From Oscillospiraceae bacterium (GTDB lineage: Bacteria > Bacillota > Clostridia > Oscillospirales > CAG-272), in assembly GCA_015063585.1 (NCBI GenBank), contig SVTW01000015.1, positions 1 to 38,506 of the forward strand: a stretch of DNA of 38,506 nucleotides, in the 5' to 3' direction. Below the pieces are notes generated by a model. It did no database searches and was not told the DNA's origin. It saw only the letters and a list, made by a program, of their open reading frames with translations. Positions 26,265 to 33,717 of the stretch are shown piece after piece. Every line of letters starts with the position of its first letter. Position 1 is the first letter of the stretch. The position numbers were made by a program, and so were the translations under genes.

Positions 26265-26846
26265 TTACATCGGATTTTCCAACTTTTCCAACAAGCCCGT
26301 TGCATGTTGCTTGATCAGCGCGGCATAATACGTAACAACAATTACTTCCAATGCCTTATTAAGACGCTCGCGTGCTCCCGCTACGGGCTCGGCATAGTCG
26401 GCTGTAACGGTTTCAACAGCCGCGTGAACCGAGGAAAGTGAGCAAGATGCGTGCATCATATTTTCCAAAATGCGGCAAATATAGTCATAGAGCATCGAAT
26501 CGGAAATAATATCATCCGACGCATCTCCAACCTTACCATTGATATACTGAATCAAAAATGCGATTTTATCAAGCTGCATACAAGAGCGCAACATATTGAT
26601 AATTAAAATGTGCGCAACCTGATCCACATTGTATTTTTTCAGCTTGCTGTTGACTACCCAGCCGCGCTTGGTCCAGTTTTGAAGTGTAGAACTATCAATG
26701 CCCGAAATATCTCTGATTTGGGTCAGCATAACGCCTTCGCTGATAAAAAACACTTTTTTCAGGAATTCCATTCCTGTAAGGTTGTCCATTTCGGACTTTT
26801 TCAATTTTGTTCCGGGAATATAATCGTCGTGAAATTTCAGTATCAT
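26265..26846 (-). CDS. DUF1836 domain protein, probable DNA-binding regulator
   Basis: A 193-residue protein that matches what I know of the DUF1836 family (YkrK-like), found widely in Firmicutes. The segment LTQIRDISGIDSSTLQNWTKRGWV followed by KKYNVDQVAHILIINML resembles a MerR-like helix-turn-helix with its wing; the rest is helical. No enzyme motif is seen. AAAGGAGAG precedes the ATG. The promoter contains a palindrome overlapping the -35 box, suggesting repression, perhaps by this protein itself. Target genes unknown. Confidence 0.8.
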   Translation of the reverse strand: MILKFHDDYIPGTKLKKSEMDNLTGMEFLKKVFFISEGVMLTQIRDISGIDSSTLQNWTKRGWVVNSKLKKYNVDQVAHILIINMLRSCMQLDKIAFLIQYINGKVGDASDDIISDSMLYDYICRILENMMHASCSLSSVHAAVETVTADYAEPVAGARERLNKALEVIVVTYYAALIKQHATGLLEKLENPM

Positions 26847-27048: not shown

Positions 27049-28095
27049 TTATTCGGTTATTTCGCGCAAAATCTGATCCAATTGCGCAATGTCCTCGCGG
27101 CGCGTCGCCCAGCTTGTTGCAAAGCGTATCACAGTATGCGTATCGTCGTACTGTTCCCAAAAGCCAACACCGACCTGCTCGGATAGCGTTTGATAGAGGC
27201 GGTTTTCCAAAATAATGAATATCTGATTGGTAGGTGAATCCAAAAAGAACTGAAATCCGCGTGCTGTAAAAAGAGCTTTCAATTCCTCTGCCATGTCAAT
27301 GGCATGCTTTGAAATTTGAAAATAAAGATCATTTGTAAAAAGCGTGTCAAATTGAATTCCAAGCAAGCGCCCTTTCGCAAGCAATGCGCCATGCTGCTTG
27401 ATCTTGGTGAAAAATTTTTTCGGTGTGCGCCCTTCTGCAAACACAACCGCCTCTCCGCAAAGTGCCCCAACCTTTGTACCGCCGATATAAAATGCGTCAC
27501 AAAGCCTTGCGAGATCGGGTAATGTAACGTCACTTCCCTTTGCCATCAAGCCATAACCGAGACGTGCGCCGTCGATATAAAGATAAAGACCGTTCTTTTT
27601 GCAAATGTCGGAAATACGACGTAATTCCGCGAACGTGTAAAGCGTGCCGTATTCAGTTGGATGAGAAAGATAAATCATCTTTGGTGTCGCCATATGCTGA
27701 TTATTTGCATCCCCATGAAAGGCTTGAAGCAATTGCTCTAATGCGGAAATATCAATTTTTCCATTCTCCTGCGCGATCTCCAGCACCTTGTGCCCCGTAT
27801 ATTCGATTGCCCCCGCTTCATGGCCGTTGATGTGTCCTGTTTTCGCGGAAATAACCGCCTCACAGGAATCCAGCATGGTATCAATGACAAGCTGATTGGT
27901 TTGCGTGCCGCCTGTGAGAAGAAAAACTTCGGAGTTTTCACTTTGGCAAGCAGCCTTGATTTTCTGCTTTGCCGATTCACAGTAGCGGTCCACCCCGTAT
28001 CCCGAGAGCTGCTCGTAATTGGTTTCGGTGAAACGATTGAGAATCGCCTCATGACACCCCTGAATATAATCACTTTCAAAGGATATTTTTTTCAT
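27049..28095 (-). CDS. threonine-aldolase-like PLP enzyme
   Basis: A 348-residue fold-type I PLP enzyme of the low-specificity threonine aldolase/beta-eliminating lyase family, which splits L-threonine into glycine and acetaldehyde. The PLP-binding lysine is Lys208 in YIGGTKVGAL. YIDGARLG (173-180) holds the Asp that pairs with the pyridine nitrogen, GGTQTN (62-67) grips the phosphate, and HINGHEAGA supplies the stacking His region. I chose ATG 28095 because AGGGGGATC precedes it and it overlaps the ATPase stop (ATGA); the longer reading to 28131 runs into the ATPase gene. Last gene of the six-gene operon. Confidence 0.88.
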   Translation of the reverse strand: MKKISFESDYIQGCHEAILNRFTETNYEQLSGYGVDRYCESAKQKIKAACQSENSEVFLLTGGTQTNQLVIDTMLDSCEAVISAKTGHINGHEAGAIEYTGHKVLEIAQENGKIDISALEQLLQAFHGDANNQHMATPKMIYLSHPTEYGTLYTFAELRRISDICKKNGLYLYIDGARLGYGLMAKGSDVTLPDLARLCDAFYIGGTKVGALCGEAVVFAEGRTPKKFFTKIKQHGALLAKGRLLGIQFDTLFTNDLYFQISKHAIDMAEELKALFTARGFQFFLDSPTNQIFIILENRLYQTLSEQVGVGFWEQYDDTHTVIRFATSWATRREDIAQLDQILREITE

Positions 28096-28859
28096 ATCAG
28101 ATCCCCCTTTTGCGTTGCTTGAATCCCCCATATTTCGCCGACGTAACGCTCGACACCGAATAAGGATTCTATTTTTTTCTTTTTTAAAATAGATTCAACC
28201 GAGTCCTGTCCGACAGATCGTCCGTCCTTCATCAAAATGATCTCATTCGCATATCGGACCGCATCGGCAATATCGTGTGTAACAACCAACACCGTTTTTC
28301 CGCGATCTTGATTGAAATGATGTAGAATTTCCATAATTTTGTAACGGTTATATTCATCAAGATGCGCGTCAGGCTCGTCTAACATCAATAGCGGGGCATC
28401 CTGCGCCGCCGCCATCGCAATGTACGCGCGCCGCAACTCACCGCCTGACAAACGATCAAGATTTGCATTTCTTAATTTTTGCAGATCAAAAAGCACTATC
28501 GCGTCTTCAATCAATTGCAGATCCTGCTCACGCAAGCGTTCACCAAGCGTTCGATGCGGCATGCGTCCAAACGTGATCAGGTCGGTTACCGAAATTCCCG
28601 CTCTTGCAGGAATTTGCGGAACAATTGCTACCTCAGAGGCGCGCTCCTTAGCGGAATAGTCCCGAAGTGGGCGTCCTTTCAAAAGGATTTCGCCTTGATA
28701 TGGAAGCATTCCCGAAACCGCGGATAAAAAAGTACTTTTTCCGCATCCGTTCGGTCCTAATAATACAGTAAAGGACCCCTGTCGGACAGTAGCCGAAAAG
28801 CCCTTGAGAATCGCCCGACCGCCGCGACATAACATTAAATTTTTTGCTTCAAGTATCAT
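28092..28859 (-). CDS. ABC transporter ATPase, iron-siderophore/cobalamin/heme type
   Basis: A 255-residue ATPase of the FecE/FhuC/BtuD group. Walker A GPNGCGKS (35-42), signature LSGGE (137-141), Walker B LLMLDEP (157-163) and switch His195 are all present. The ATG at 28859 overlaps the permease stop by four bases. A much longer open frame upstream (to 29309) is only the shadow of the permease gene. It drives import through the FecCD-type permease encoded upstream. The ligand cannot be read from the ATPase. Confidence 0.93.
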   Translation of the reverse strand: MILEAKNLMLCRGGRAILKGFSATVRQGSFTVLLGPNGCGKSTFLSAVSGMLPYQGEILLKGRPLRDYSAKERASEVAIVPQIPARAGISVTDLITFGRMPHRTLGERLREQDLQLIEDAIVLFDLQKLRNANLDRLSGGELRRAYIAMAAAQDAPLLMLDEPDAHLDEYNRYKIMEILHHFNQDRGKTVLVVTHDIADAVRYANEIILMKDGRSVGQDSVESILKKKKIESLFGVERYVGEIWGIQATQKGDLI

Positions 28860-29875
28860 ATCGAATCCCCCTGAAAGCGTTTTTGTAACAAAACAGAGAG
28901 AAAAAACGGCGCGCCGATACAAGCCATCATAATCCCAACGGGAATTTCGGTAGGCGCAAGGAGGAGCCTGCCAAGCAGATCCGCAAGTAAGACTAAAATC
29001 GCGCCGAGCAATGCCGAAACCCCAAGCAAGTACGCGGTATGGTTTCCGGTCAATTTTCTTGCAAAATTGGGAACGACCAATCCGACAAACCCTAAAAGTC
29101 CCGCAAAGCTTACTACAGCCGCCGCGCATGCCGATGCGCAAAGCACGGCAAGCAATCGGATACGGCGCACGCGAACCCCAAGAGACGCGGCTGTAAGATT
29201 CCCCAAAGCCAACGCGTTGATGGGTTTTGAAAACAAGAGCGCAAACAGCAGTCCAAATCCGATCATAACAGCCGGAAACGCAAGCACTCGCAAAGAGCTG
29301 ACCGCGCAAGATCCAACCGAAAATCCGTGATAGGATGCCATTACGTCATCATTCATCAACGTAAAAAAAGAAATAAATGCGCTGAAAAGCGCTCCAAGTG
29401 CAATTCCTGCGAGAACAAAGGAGCCTTTTGCGTCCCCCATCGCGCGGCTGATTGCAAGAATGAGACAGGTAACCAAAAATGCGCCAAAAAAAGAGACGAG
29501 CGGCATCCACTCTCCCCACATCGGAAAAAGCGTTAGGAGGAGGACGCTGAAAAAGCCGGCACCCTGATTGACCCCGATCAGACTCGGACCCGCAAGCGGA
29601 TTATCGGTTACGGTTTGAAGCAAAACGCCGGACACCGATAAGCCAATGCCACATAAAATGCATGCCACAACACGCGGCAAACGCACGGCATATAGGATCA
29701 GCGTTGCGGTTTTATCATTGGAAAAACCGAAAAGTGCCGAGAAAAACGTTTGAAATGACATTTTAACGTTTCCTAAATACAAGGATAACAGGGCCGCTAC
29801 AAAAAGCCCCGCAAGAAGCATAAAAAAACATTTTGGAGATTGAAAAAAAGGCTTTCGAACGGCATTATTCCTCAT
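28856..29875 (-). CDS. FecCD/BtuC-family ABC transporter permease
   Basis: A 339-residue, very hydrophobic protein with about nine to ten helices. Family marks include RLPRVVACILCGIGLSVSG near residue 65, the run DNPLAGPSLIGVNQGAG and, towards the end, GLVVPNFARKLTGNHTAYLL, the cytoplasmic loop that touches the ATPase. The family imports iron-siderophores, heme or corrinoids. The start overlaps the end of the binding-protein gene by 11 bases. Confidence 0.94.
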   Translation of the reverse strand: MRNNAVRKPFFQSPKCFFMLLAGLFVAALLSLYLGNVKMSFQTFFSALFGFSNDKTATLILYAVRLPRVVACILCGIGLSVSGVLLQTVTDNPLAGPSLIGVNQGAGFFSVLLLTLFPMWGEWMPLVSFFGAFLVTCLILAISRAMGDAKGSFVLAGIALGALFSAFISFFTLMNDDVMASYHGFSVGSCAVSSLRVLAFPAVMIGFGLLFALLFSKPINALALGNLTAASLGVRVRRIRLLAVLCASACAAAVVSFAGLLGFVGLVVPNFARKLTGNHTAYLLGVSALLGAILVLLADLLGRLLLAPTEIPVGIMMACIGAPFFLSVLLQKRFQGDSI

Positions 29876-30803
29876 TGCAATACAAGAGCTCCTTTAAGTA
29901 CTCATACGCCTCTGCCCATCGGTGATTGGGCTTATACTGAAACAAATTCTTGGGAAGATAGTGGCATCGCCCCTCCCGAACGGCAGAGAGCGATTGCCAT
30001 GCGGGCTCGGAGAAAATCGATTCCATATTGGCAACGGCGGCATCCTCATCTCCCATGGTTGAAATGAAAATACAATCGGGATCCTCGCGTAAAATCTCCT
30101 CCAAACTCAAGCCGTCAATCAAGATCGGCGCATTGTCTGCAATGTTTTTGGTATTCAGATCGGCAAGCATGTCGCACGCAAAATGATCGCCTGCAACCTT
30201 TGCTTTTGCGACCTTACTTCCTACGCGAATAAAGAGAATTTTGGGATTGGCGTCCTTGGGAACAGCGGAGAGTGTATCATGAATCTGTTGTTGCACCTTG
30301 GTTCCGTACTGAGAATAAGCCATGCTGTTTTCGGTGATCCTTGTACAGATATCCAGCATGTGAAGATAATCGTCAAAAGAATCCACTTGAAAAAATGCGA
30401 TCGGAATATCCGCCTGCTCAAAAAGCTCCGCACACGCCACTTGTGCCTCAATATCCGCCGATGCAATAATGAAATCAGGGCGGCTGGCAAGAAGCACTTC
30501 ACGGTTAATGCTCTTCCCTGCCCCCGCATCAACCAAAATTACATTTTGCGGTGCAAAACCACGCGTAACGCTTTCTCCAACTGTTACGGCGACCTCACCG
30601 CCTGCCAACCGCCAAATTTCGGCATACGAGGAAAACAGGACGGCAACACGGCAAGGCTTCTCGTATAACGTTACCTCCCGTTCAAGATCGTCGGCAAACC
30701 GAAAATAAAAACGGTCATTCAAAGCGTGGGAGTTCTGATTGCACGCAACAAGATTCCATAAAACGGTTAGCAAGCAAACAAAGACAACAAGCCGCCGTTT
30801 CAT
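29865..30803 (-). CDS. substrate-binding lipoprotein of the FecCD-type ABC importer
   Basis: A 312-residue extracellular lipoprotein. The signal peptide is MKRR plus a hydrophobic core ending in the lipobox LVAC, with lipidated Cys21. The mature part is a type III (TroA/FecB/BtuF-like) binding protein: it has the conserved opening RVAVLFSSYAEIWRLAGG, the hinge-region text SLEEILREDPDCIFIS, and a closing AEAYEYLKELLY. Ligand not identifiable; iron complexes, heme or corrinoids are the usual choices. Its ATG overlaps the stop of the siroheme-reductase gene by four bases. Confidence 0.9.
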   Translation of the reverse strand: MKRRLVVFVCLLTVLWNLVACNQNSHALNDRFYFRFADDLEREVTLYEKPCRVAVLFSSYAEIWRLAGGEVAVTVGESVTRGFAPQNVILVDAGAGKSINREVLLASRPDFIIASADIEAQVACAELFEQADIPIAFFQVDSFDDYLHMLDICTRITENSMAYSQYGTKVQQQIHDTLSAVPKDANPKILFIRVGSKVAKAKVAGDHFACDMLADLNTKNIADNAPILIDGLSLEEILREDPDCIFISTMGDEDAAVANMESIFSEPAWQSLSAVREGRCHYLPKNLFQYKPNHRWAEAYEYLKELLYCNEE

Positions 30804-31717
30804 ACGCCTAAAATGGATTCTTTGCGTGCCAAAATTTCATCGGAAAGAAGCTCTTTTTGAACCGATTCAAAGCCAATGCGCTCAATCGTATCGGCAAAGC
30901 GCTCGCCTGCTTCTCCGCGTTCCTTGAAAAAGAGAATGGATTTTTCAATAAAACGCAAAACCTCCTCGCGGTTGAAAAAGATCGGTTCAATCGCGCGACC
31001 TCGCGCACATTTTTTGCCCCATCTGCCGCCGATGTAAATACGGTATCCGTCTGTATAGTTCTCAAACACCCCAAACGGGCATTTGGAGAGACATCTGCCG
31101 CAGTGATTACAGGTTTCATCCACCGTTATTTTTTCGTCCGTAAGCGTTGCCGCGTGAATCGGGCAAGCCGCCTCAACCAAGCACTTTTTGCAGGATTTAC
31201 ATTGATCCGCATCAACGCGGATCACACGCTGACCTACAATTCCAAGATCATTGAGGTCGGGCTTGGCACAGTTATTCGGACAGCCTCCAACGCCAATTTT
31301 GAATTTATGCGGTAATTTAACATCATGATATCCCTTATAAAACCGCTCGTGAATTTCCGCCGAAAGCGCAAAGGTATCAATCAAGCCAAAAACACAGGTT
31401 GTACCCTTGCAGGAAACCACAGGTCGCACCTTAGGTCCCGTACCGCCGGTTTCCAAGCCCCCCTCTGCCAAAAAAGCGCGCAGGGGCTCAATGTTGGCAT
31501 AAGGAATGCCCTGAATCTCAATGGTCATACGCGTTGTCATTGCAACCTCGCCCTTGCCGAAGCGCTTTGCCGCCTCGGCAATTCGGATCGCTTCGTCGGA
31601 CGTGATCTTACCGTTTCTTGTAATTACACGGGCATTAAAGCAATCCTCGGTCGTTTTATCACGCAGAAAACCAAGTCCTTTTACTTTTTGAATATCTTCG
31701 GGTTTTAACATGTTCAT
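30800..31717 (-). CDS. siroheme/[4Fe-4S] reductase-like protein, AsrC/Dsr-LP type
   Basis: A 305-residue protein with a nitrite/sulfite-reductase ferredoxin-like half domain at about 45-90, then a siroheme-[4Fe-4S] site: Cys103 and Cys108 (SCKGTTC), Cys146 and Cys150 (GGCPNNC). A double [4Fe-4S] ferredoxin insert follows: C173-x2-C176-x2-C179-x5-C185-P and C203-x2-C206-x2-C209-x3-C213-P. This layout matches the anaerobic sulfite reductase subunit AsrC and the dissimilatory-sulfite-reductase-like proteins. asrA and asrB partners are absent. The ATG overlaps the glgB stop; ATG two codons later is an alternative. Its real substrate (sulfite, nitrite or something else) is unknown. Confidence 0.87.
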   Translation of the reverse strand: MNMLKPEDIQKVKGLGFLRDKTTEDCFNARVITRNGKITSDEAIRIAEAAKRFGKGEVAMTTRMTIEIQGIPYANIEPLRAFLAEGGLETGGTGPKVRPVVSCKGTTCVFGLIDTFALSAEIHERFYKGYHDVKLPHKFKIGVGGCPNNCAKPDLNDLGIVGQRVIRVDADQCKSCKKCLVEAACPIHAATLTDEKITVDETCNHCGRCLSKCPFGVFENYTDGYRIYIGGRWGKKCARGRAIEPIFFNREEVLRFIEKSILFFKERGEAGERFADTIERIGFESVQKELLSDEILARKESILGV

Positions 31718-33717
31718 TTTTGTCCTTTATTCTTAATTTTTTTCAAGCAAATACCACATCTTGCGGGCAAATAAATTTGAAACTTCGAAACACCGTCCAC
31801 ATCTTTTTTGGCGCGATATACATAGGATTCCGAAACGCGGCCCGCGCCTCCAAACACCTCCGAATCGCTGGAGAGCGCCACAGAATACTGCCCCGACGAC
31901 AAAACGGGAAGATAATATCCCTCATAGGAATTTTTGGGGCTGAAATTAATGGCAAACACCAATCCGTCACGCGCATAGACGATCACCTGCTTCTCTGCGT
32001 CAAGGAAAAGGCAACGCGGCGGGTTACGGAAAAAGCGTTGCGATTGAAGCAGAGCGATCATTTCGCGATCAAATGCCTGCAAATATCCGTATTTCAAATT
32101 CGGATCATCGGCAAGATGCCATTGACGGCGGCAATAAAAATAACTCCATCCGTTCCCTTCCCGCGGAAAATCGATCCATTCGGGATGTCCAAACTCATTT
32201 CCCATAAAGTTCAGATACCCCTCGCCGCCCAACGTCATTGTAATCATGCGAATCAACTTGTGAAGTGCGATACCGCGCTCAATGATCGGATCGTTGCTTG
32301 ATTTACACATATCGGTGTACATTTTGCTGTCACACAAACGGAAGATCAGGGTTTTATCGCCAACAAGCGCTTGGTCATGGGATTCCACGTATCCGATATA
32401 TTTTTCCATCGGCCGGCGGCTTGTCAACTCTCCCCATATCTGCCACATGTTCCAGGTCTCGTCGGGCTGTTCTTTGAGAATCTTGATCCACATATCGGGA
32501 TTTCCCATCGAAAGACGATAATCAAACCCGATTCCGCCCTCCCGAATCGGCAAGCACATGCCGGGCATTGCCGACATATCCTCTGCAATCGTGACAGCCT
32601 GCGGGTTCACCTCGCGGATCATTGCGTTGGCAAGTTGCAGATAGGTGATGGCTTCTGTATCGGTGTTCAGGGAAAAATACTTGGAATAATCGGTAAAAGC
32701 CTCACCCAATCCATGATTGTGGTAAATCATAGAGGTCACACCGTCGAAGCGGAAGCCGTCAAAATGAAACTCGGTCATCCAATATTTTAAATTGGAAAGC
32801 AGAAAATGAATGACCTCATTTTTGTGATAATTAAAAAGCTTTGTGCCCCATGCGGGATGGTCACCTCTCGCGCCCTCGTGGAAGAATTGGTAAGTGGTTC
32901 CGTCAAATTCATTGAGCCCCTCTGCGGTATTTTTTACCGCGTGAGAATGAACCACGTCAAGCAGAACCGAAATTCCCATTCCGTGTGCCGTGTCGATCAA
33001 TTCCTTGAGTTCATTGGGCGTGCCGTATCGGGAACAAGCGGCAAAGAAGGAGGAAACCTGATAACCGAAGGAACCGTAATAAGGATGCTCCATGATCGCC
33101 ATGATTTGAATGGTGTTATAGCCGAGCGACTGAATTCGAGGCAGTATTTTTTCACGGAATTCGGTGTAGGATCCAATGCCTTCTCGCTCCTGTGCCATGC
33201 CGATATGACATTCATAGATATATACAGGTTCCTTTTTTGCGGCAAAATCCGAATGCTTCCAAATATAATTCGGTTCATCCCAAACAATGCCACACCAGCT
33301 TCCGTTGCTTTTATCCTGCTCTACACGTCGGATATAAAGCGGAATCCGTTCCAGATAACGGTCCCCTTTTTGAACAATGGTCTTTACGTGACAACCGTTC
33401 CAAAGCGCGTTGTGCCCCTGTATCCGAATCTCAAAAATACCGTTTCCGATCGCTTCAAGCTTCCAATCGAGCCATCTCCAATCGACCATATCTCCTGTAA
33501 GATATACCGCATCGGCGGCAGGTGCCCATTCGCGGTATACCCAACCGTCCGCGGTTCGGTGAAAACCAAAATATTCATGTCCGTTTGCAAAATCACACAA
33601 CCGTCCCCGCGTGCCAACAAGCTCACGTTTTTTTTGCTTGTAATTTTCCATTCGTTGCAAAATGTCCTGCTCATATGGCAAGAGAGCGGGGTCGTAATCA
33701 AAAATTTTGTATTTCAT
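31714..33717 (-). CDS. glgB: 1,4-alpha-glucan branching enzyme, eukaryote-like (GH13_8)
   Basis: A 667-residue GH13 enzyme that makes the alpha-1,6 branches of glycogen. N-terminal CBM48-like domain (FHRTADGWVYREWAPAADAVYLTGD, about 52-76), then the barrel with VLLDVVHSH (251-259), nucleophile Asp325 in FRFDGV, acid/base Glu379 in IAED, and the transition-state block YVESHDQALVGDKT. The sequence FRFDGVTSMIYHNHG is that of eukaryotic and GH13_8 branching enzymes, not of the usual E. coli type. ATAGGAGG precedes the ATG. No other glycogen gene (glgA, glgC, glgP) is in the window. First gene of a six-gene overlapping operon. Confidence 0.93.
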   Translation of the reverse strand: MKYKIFDYDPALLPYEQDILQRMENYKQKKRELVGTRGRLCDFANGHEYFGFHRTADGWVYREWAPAADAVYLTGDMVDWRWLDWKLEAIGNGIFEIRIQGHNALWNGCHVKTIVQKGDRYLERIPLYIRRVEQDKSNGSWCGIVWDEPNYIWKHSDFAAKKEPVYIYECHIGMAQEREGIGSYTEFREKILPRIQSLGYNTIQIMAIMEHPYYGSFGYQVSSFFAACSRYGTPNELKELIDTAHGMGISVLLDVVHSHAVKNTAEGLNEFDGTTYQFFHEGARGDHPAWGTKLFNYHKNEVIHFLLSNLKYWMTEFHFDGFRFDGVTSMIYHNHGLGEAFTDYSKYFSLNTDTEAITYLQLANAMIREVNPQAVTIAEDMSAMPGMCLPIREGGIGFDYRLSMGNPDMWIKILKEQPDETWNMWQIWGELTSRRPMEKYIGYVESHDQALVGDKTLIFRLCDSKMYTDMCKSSNDPIIERGIALHKLIRMITMTLGGEGYLNFMGNEFGHPEWIDFPREGNGWSYFYCRRQWHLADDPNLKYGYLQAFDREMIALLQSQRFFRNPPRCLFLDAEKQVIVYARDGLVFAINFSPKNSYEGYYLPVLSSGQYSVALSSDSEVFGGAGRVSESYVYRAKKDVDGVSKFQIYLPARCGICLKKIKNKGQK

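Follow-up and report, generated by a model that had tools for sequence, protein, structure and literature searches.

The DNA analysed here (the window) is contig SVTW01000015.1, positions 1-38,506, of the Oscillospiraceae bacterium assembly GCA_015063585.1 (CAG-272), and corresponds to the entire contig C34 of a 2.24-Mb draft genome that is 86.5% complete (G000). Its region 27,049-33,717 encodes a siroheme-type reductase together with a putative ATP-binding cassette (ABC) importer. An earlier note on this DNA had described the region as a six-gene operon with five overlapping junctions, and the coordinates agree with this description: all six genes are on the minus strand and overlap, in reading order, by 4, 4, 11, 4, and 4 bases. 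The gene names were supported by Pfam matches to an alpha-glucan branching enzyme, a NIR_SIR/ferredoxin protein, a Peripla_BP_2 lipoprotein, a FecCD permease, an ABC ATPase, and a pyridoxal phosphate (PLP) lyase/aldolase. The genes in reading order are:

31714-33717, minus strand: 1,4-alpha-glucan branching enzyme of the eukaryote type; first gene of the operon, probably a passenger
30800-31717, minus strand: stand-alone siroheme/[4Fe-4S] reductase of the group III Dsr-LP / Fsr-C type, 305 amino acids
29865-30803, minus strand: binding lipoprotein (Peripla_BP_2) of the proposed siroheme importer
28856-29875, minus strand: FecCD-type permease of the importer
28092-28859, minus strand: ATPase of the importer; ATG start, the longest frame begins further upstream
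27049-28095, minus strand: PLP-dependent threonine-aldolase-like enzyme that closes the operon; a probable passenger

The reductase, the binding lipoprotein, the FecCD permease, and the ATPase are considered the core of the operon and, with a probability of about 0.7, a salvage module in which the importer would supply siroheme or a late precursor of it. The lipoprotein would capture siroheme (alternatively, sirohydrochlorin or precorrin-2) that other microbes release, the permease and the ATPase would carry the captured tetrapyrrole into the cell, and the reductase of the same operon would take the imported siroheme as its own prosthetic group and use it to reduce sulfite or a similar oxyanion with electrons delivered via its ferredoxin-type clusters. 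From sequence data we infer what is bound, that transport runs inwards, that the genes share a transcript, and which substrate the reductase uses.

Distribution of the importer, the reductase, and siroheme synthesis

The comparison was based on 90 reductase-bearing genomes comprising the window, nine relatives from the same genus or order, and 80 scan loci, the latter being the best 80 of 584 confirmed relatives from 84,980 species genomes and hence closest kin, not a random sample. Gene neighbourhoods were analyzed in 89 related stretches of 3.4-20 kb using an E-value threshold of 1e-8 for homologs. The hypothesis of siroheme supply was recorded before the 80 scan genomes were tested.

Importer genes adjoin the reductase gene in 20 of the 90 genomes, the window included, and this linkage exceeds chance. 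The binding protein is encoded directly downstream of the reductase at 16 of these loci, divergently at three, and at the remaining one the whole importer is located upstream on the same strand; permease and ATPase genes lie beside the binding protein gene at 19 of the 20. The 4-base overlap between reductase and binding protein genes recurs at half of the co-directional loci (8/16, counting the window and one TTG start). The suggestion of the earlier note that reductase and importer form one system, to be checked by their conservation in related genomes, is thereby borne out. No other neighbour recurred with the linked importers at more than about three of the 20 loci, apart from shadow frames and a DUF134-type (sigma-70 region 4-like) gene. 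The latter is located directly before the reductase gene in L086 (551-949) and in one frame with the reductase in L055 (7617-7900), and may regulate the system. A second transporter tied to the reductase in Mediterraneibacter-type genomes was considered and rejected, as the ATPases in question lie among rpsF-ssb-rpsR-like neighbours (recognised by eye) and at some loci only.

At two loci siroheme synthesis genes stand next to the reductase or the importer. In L088 a hemA-sirC-hemC-cobA/hemD-hemB-hemL cluster follows the reductase gene on the same strand after about 140 bases, in the place that the importer takes in other genomes (hemA, sirC, cobA, and hemB named by NCBIfam models, the names hemC and hemL resting on similarity and position only). 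In L098 the start of SirC lies 21-24 bases behind the importer ATPase at a contig end, and the later part of a SirC-type gene opens another contig of the same genome. For R. bromii, a gene cluster combining siroheme synthesis with a sulfite reductase is reported (PMC6378601).

Presence of the importer was called at an E-value of 1e-30 against a model built from 19 linked binding proteins, which therefore match by construction. Fourteen matches come from outside the model (G012, G040, G058, G067, G070, G082, and eight found in a later search). The binding protein and HemB were scored in all 90 genomes, and CobA, SirC (TIGR01470), and CbiK in 60 of them; this smaller set contained 14 linked loci and 36 of the 66 other scan genomes, chosen by the analyst.

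Among 25 genomes of the window's genus the binding protein was present in all seven that carry the reductase and in none of the 18 others, so that within the genus, as among the linked loci, calculation places the importer with the reductase; in G012 the complete importer is encoded on a different contig from the reductase. HemB was not detected in any of the 25 genomes, nor was CobA above its cut-off, some weak matches remaining below it, and the members with a reductase of the siroheme type are thus without visible siroheme synthesis. Three reductase-bearing genomes belong to other families of the order: HemB and CobA without the importer occur in G036 and G037, and HemB, CobA, and the importer are all missing from G038.

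Over all 90 genomes, HemB was found in none of the 33 importer-positive and in 38 of the 57 importer-negative genomes (Fisher's exact test, p = 3e-11, kinship ignored). The 60-genome set gave the same contrast for CobA (1/25 importer-positive vs. 32/35 importer-negative genomes), SirC (2/25 vs. 33/35), and CbiK (3/25 vs. 31/35). When the 14 linked loci were excluded, the importer was present in none of the 36 scan genomes with HemB and in 12 of the 30 without it. The genome of Gemmiger sp. An87 (G053), for which the record gives no metagenome label, carries the importer; HemB, CobA, SirC, and CbiK were not found in it.

Kinship was taken into account with a careful and a quick tree, both built from the reductase, not from species. 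The state of the importer changes at least 18 times on the reductase tree. In the careful tree, with 10 independent well-supported pairs, HemB was opposite to the importer in 7.2 pairs and the same in none on average (median p = 0.016); the quick tree, with eight pairs, gave 5.1 vs. 0 (median p = 0.0625). By these calculations importer and siroheme synthesis are nearly mutually exclusive.

This distribution bears on the nature of the cargo. If the importer carried the substrate of the reductase, for instance a sulfur oxyanion or an organic sulfur compound, it should serve siroheme makers equally well, yet it occurs in just one of the 33 CobA-positive genomes among the 60 scored; import of the substrate is accordingly an improbable explanation. 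As a replacement for siroheme synthesis, the importer would most likely carry a compound that lies past the CobA step, i.e., siroheme, sirohydrochlorin, or precorrin-2. For the window's genome we favour siroheme itself, since SirC and CbiK were not found in it (other chelatase families were not searched for); in the lineage of L098, where SirC stands immediately after the importer, the ligand may be an iron-free precursor. The earlier note's guess at a tetrapyrrole ligand points in the right direction. The importer is present where siroheme synthesis is missing.

Reductase and importer families

The reductase is most similar to the C-terminal half of the F420-dependent sulfite reductase Fsr (E-value 1e-36). 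Its siroheme-[4Fe-4S] motif consists of C103-X4-C108 and C146-X3-C150, of which C103 is conserved in 89 and the other three cysteines in all 90 reductases; CX4C and CX5C forms of the first motif are both accepted according to PMC8351635. Five basic residues (R30, R63, R98, K138, and K140) align with Fsr R355, R388, R423, K460, and K462 and are kept in 88 to 90 of the 90 reductases. In PMC10229431, sulfite is described as held in Fsr by R355, R423, K460, and K462, with R388 as a trait of assimilatory enzymes. Eight further cysteines (173, 176, 179, 185, 203, 206, 209, and 213) are present in all 90 sequences and are predicted to bind the peripheral and one additional [4Fe-4S] cluster; in the window's protein, Pfam recognises Fer4-type domains. 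The protein thus shares with the C-terminal part of Fsr and with the group III Dsr-like proteins (PMC10229431, PMC3448663) the siroheme-[4Fe-4S] motif, two further [4Fe-4S] motifs, and the five arginine and lysine residues, and its cluster motifs fit the group III description in PMC3448663. Unlike Fsr, the 305-residue window protein is without the N-terminal F420H2-oxidase half, and its first motif is CX4C, not CX5C.

The label AsrC-like, under which the reductase had been introduced in the earlier note, had to be given up. The protein shares superfamily and size with AsrC of the AsrABC system, but reached 89.5 bits with TIGR02912 against a cut-off of 324.1 and is closer to the C-terminal half of Fsr; membership in AsrC was therefore rejected. 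A plasmid search returned distant reductase relatives only, mostly annotated as AsrC and 24-28% identical (20 of 51 records listed).

The siroheme domain is C-terminal in a protein of about 860 residues in at least 63 of the 90 relatives, where proteins were counted as fused if the siroheme domain begins more than 400 residues into the frame and those cut by a contig end were counted as not fused. Examples are L064 (6360-8942) and L086 (953-3541). Two fused relatives searched with Pfam have a FAD pyridine-nucleotide-disulfide oxidoreductase in front, one of them with a rhodanese match just below the cut-off. The fused form is possibly a single-chain NAD(P)H-driven sulfite or persulfide reductase; a literature search of titles and abstracts for an enzyme combining disulfide reductase, rhodanese, and siroheme domains gave no report. 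The reductase of G038 (L017, 821-1663) is encoded on a contig of 3.7 kb and contains an in-frame TGA.

Siroheme and sulfite-site residues are alike in the reductases of importer-bearing and importer-free genomes among the 90 relatives. This bears on the proposal of the earlier note that the reductase frees an imported iron or tetrapyrrole ligand by reduction. Such a role would account for the linkage of the two, but the importer was not found in 57 of the 90 genomes with the reductase, the reductase keeps its sulfite site, and the mutual exclusion of importer and siroheme synthesis would be left unexplained. Supply of the reductase's own cofactor is favoured over ligand release because only the former predicts this exclusion, and reductive release appears highly improbable.

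The importer combines a binding protein, a FecCD permease, and an ATPase and thus belongs to the type II (FecBCD/BtuCD-like) ABC importers; it is a known kind of transporter for which a new cargo and role are proposed. It shares the Peripla_BP_2 lipoprotein, the FecCD permease, and the ATPase with systems for heme, vitamin B12, and ferric siderophores (e.g., IsdE, HtsA, and BtuF). It differs from them in that the curated cut-offs of all named systems listed are not reached and in a genomic logic that points to siroheme. The AlphaFold2 model of the binding protein (predicted local distance difference test score, pLDDT, of 91) shows the FecB/IsdE/BtuF-type fold. Binders of heme, siderophores, molybdate, and B12 could not be told apart by structural comparison, which is therefore uninformative on the ligand. 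Conserved basic residues of the binding protein include R193, K202, K285, and K291.

The importer might instead carry vitamin B12 or cobinamide, as genomes without CobA and HemB cannot make B12 and would need it. However, HemB, or CobA over its cut-off, is absent from all 25 genomes of the genus, and only the seven with the reductase have the importer. The binding protein, permease, and ATPase score far below the equivalog cut-offs for BtuF (27.4 of 234 bits), BtuC (178.8 of 334), and BtuD (118.1 of 281). B12 importers of Clostridia usually carry a cobalamin riboswitch, and none reached the gathering score, either in the window or in the 32 importer stretches taken singly from the other importer-positive genomes (eight of these stretches span only about 1.5 kb on each side). 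With an enzyme of the siroheme type, moreover, encoded next door, a B12 importer is not a probable reading.

The importer might also take up heme or ferric siderophores as a source of iron, or heme in place of siroheme, with the tie to the reductase reflecting shared iron regulation. The heme-binding protein IsdE is the top NCBIfam match of the binding protein and ranks third among its structural matches, but the score with TIGR03659 was 52 bits against the 298.65 required for IsdE. Iron supply does not predict the exclusion with CobA, SirC, and HemB, and siroheme and active-site residues are the same in the reductases of importer-bearing genomes and in those of siroheme makers. We therefore consider heme or iron import unlikely, and retain the supply of siroheme or a late precursor as the preferred interpretation.

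Exceptions and implications

Several observations weigh against this interpretation. At the level of single loci, the binding protein of L099 is without an adjacent permease or ATPase, and a synthesis operon stands beside the reductase in just one of the 89 stretches (L088). The fold of the binding protein matches siderophore and heme binders about equally well. The tree-based control with CobA and SirC had the same direction as that with HemB (0 vs. 3.8 and 4.3 of six pairs) and was non-significant (median p = 0.125). Among importer-positive genomes, G052 has CobA, SirC, and CbiK without HemB, G040 has CbiK, G051 a CbiK fragment, and G049 pieces of SirC. Neither importer nor synthesis genes were found in the reductase-bearing genomes G038 and G057. 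G062 has no CobA above the cut-off despite HemB, SirC, and CbiK, and G084 and G085 are without CbiK. HemB alone is not a clean marker because 19 of the 57 importer-negative genomes are without it, i.e., eight with CobA, SirC, and CbiK, the aforementioned G038 and G057, and nine scored for HemB only.

Matches to the binding protein are partial in G082 and G117 and weaker in G070, and the eight importer calls of the later search were made from the binding protein as the sole component. Many of the genomes are draft metagenome assemblies in which single absences mean little; no individual genome decides the contrast between the groups. The synthesis genes searched for in the genomes were HemB, CobA, SirC, and CbiK, without HemA, HemL, HemC, HemD, or further chelatase families.

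The eight importer-free genomes with CobA, SirC, and CbiK that are without HemB are G060, G063, G066, G068, G072, G075, G076, and G077 (L029, L033, L037, L039, L043, L047, L048, and L049), seven of which are labelled Mediterraneibacter. They may take up a precursor that arises downstream of HemB or rely on an unknown porphobilinogen synthase.

Siroheme is generally viewed as being made by each cell for itself. We consider it slightly better than an even chance that siroheme is instead a shared nutrient of gut microbes, and that many Clostridia have stopped making it and rely on a dedicated ABC importer for siroheme, frequently encoded in the operon of the sulfite-reductase-type enzyme that uses it. 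If so, the importer would be the first siroheme transport system and its hosts the first siroheme auxotrophs known from nature that have a functional siroheme enzyme, and the activity of such reductases in genomes lacking a siroheme pathway would be accounted for. In Clostridia importing siroheme, the reduction of sulfite and the formation of sulfide would then rely on siroheme-releasing neighbours, similar to the dependence of B12 and heme users. As a rule for reading genomes, a reductase of this kind would mostly be accompanied either by synthesis genes or by the importer, and the four-gene module named here is directly testable.

In the open-access literature no paper was found on sirohydrochlorin uptake or sirohaem transport, nor any on prokaryotic siroheme uptake, transport, import, or auxotrophy; one fungal paper was retrieved, and most subscription papers and preprints were outside the scope of the search. 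A broader search likewise gave no title or abstract dealing with uptake among the 10 of 100 papers listed. Siroheme uptake is not reported in the passages of a Porphyromonas paper among these (PMC4700951). Salvage of tetrapyrrole precursors is known in Firmicutes for cobamides, where, as described in PMC6461909, bacteria without the early pathway, mostly Firmicutes, need to take up a precursor. This dependence would be common to both cases, and the system proposed here differs from cobamide precursor salvage in that a siroheme enzyme would be served by a compound from beyond the CobA step and in that a transporter is put forward as a candidate.

Branching enzyme, aldolase, and transcription signals

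The two outer genes of the operon are probably local passengers. No homolog of the branching enzyme or the aldolase was detected in the 89 related stretches, for which reason both look like local neighbours and the possibility that all six genes form one functional system was rejected. The earlier note had likewise supposed that these two genes might be attached by chance or by shared regulation, which is in line with this result.

The first gene had been labelled glgB, a name that does not hold. Its product is closest to PDB entries 4bzy (E-value 3e-200), the human branching enzyme, and 5clt (4e-198), a cyanobacterial one, and to rice enzymes, whereas the best entry named GlgB reached an E-value of 3e-60 only. 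With the best NCBIfam GlgB model the score was 301.4 bits against a cut-off of 577. A branching enzyme of the eukaryote type is thus encoded inside a bacterial genome (window positions 31714-33717); this type also occurs in some cyanobacteria. The best solved relative of the aldolase is PDB 1svv (E-value 5e-77), a Leishmania protein, which ranked far above the low-specificity aldolases listed. The ATG start of the aldolase at 28095 lies inside the longest frame, which begins at 28131, and the match to 1svv begins at the residue of this ATG.

Two candidate transcription signals flank the operon:

33815-33787, minus strand: promoter-like site TTGAAA-17-TATAAT with TG (11/12), upstream of the first gene; consensus match only
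27029-27012, minus strand: weak terminator-like hairpin with T-run, downstream of the aldolase gene; consensus match only

The earlier note had the operon running from one promoter to one terminator. Candidate sites for both are indeed present, but such sites are no commoner in the region than in shuffled sequences (14 vs. 13.3 and 12 vs. 11.0), and a single promoter and a single terminator are plausible only. No riboswitch of a known family was detected in the window at the gathering score. A DUF1836 protein is encoded on the same strand at window positions 26265-26846, about 200 bases after the operon.

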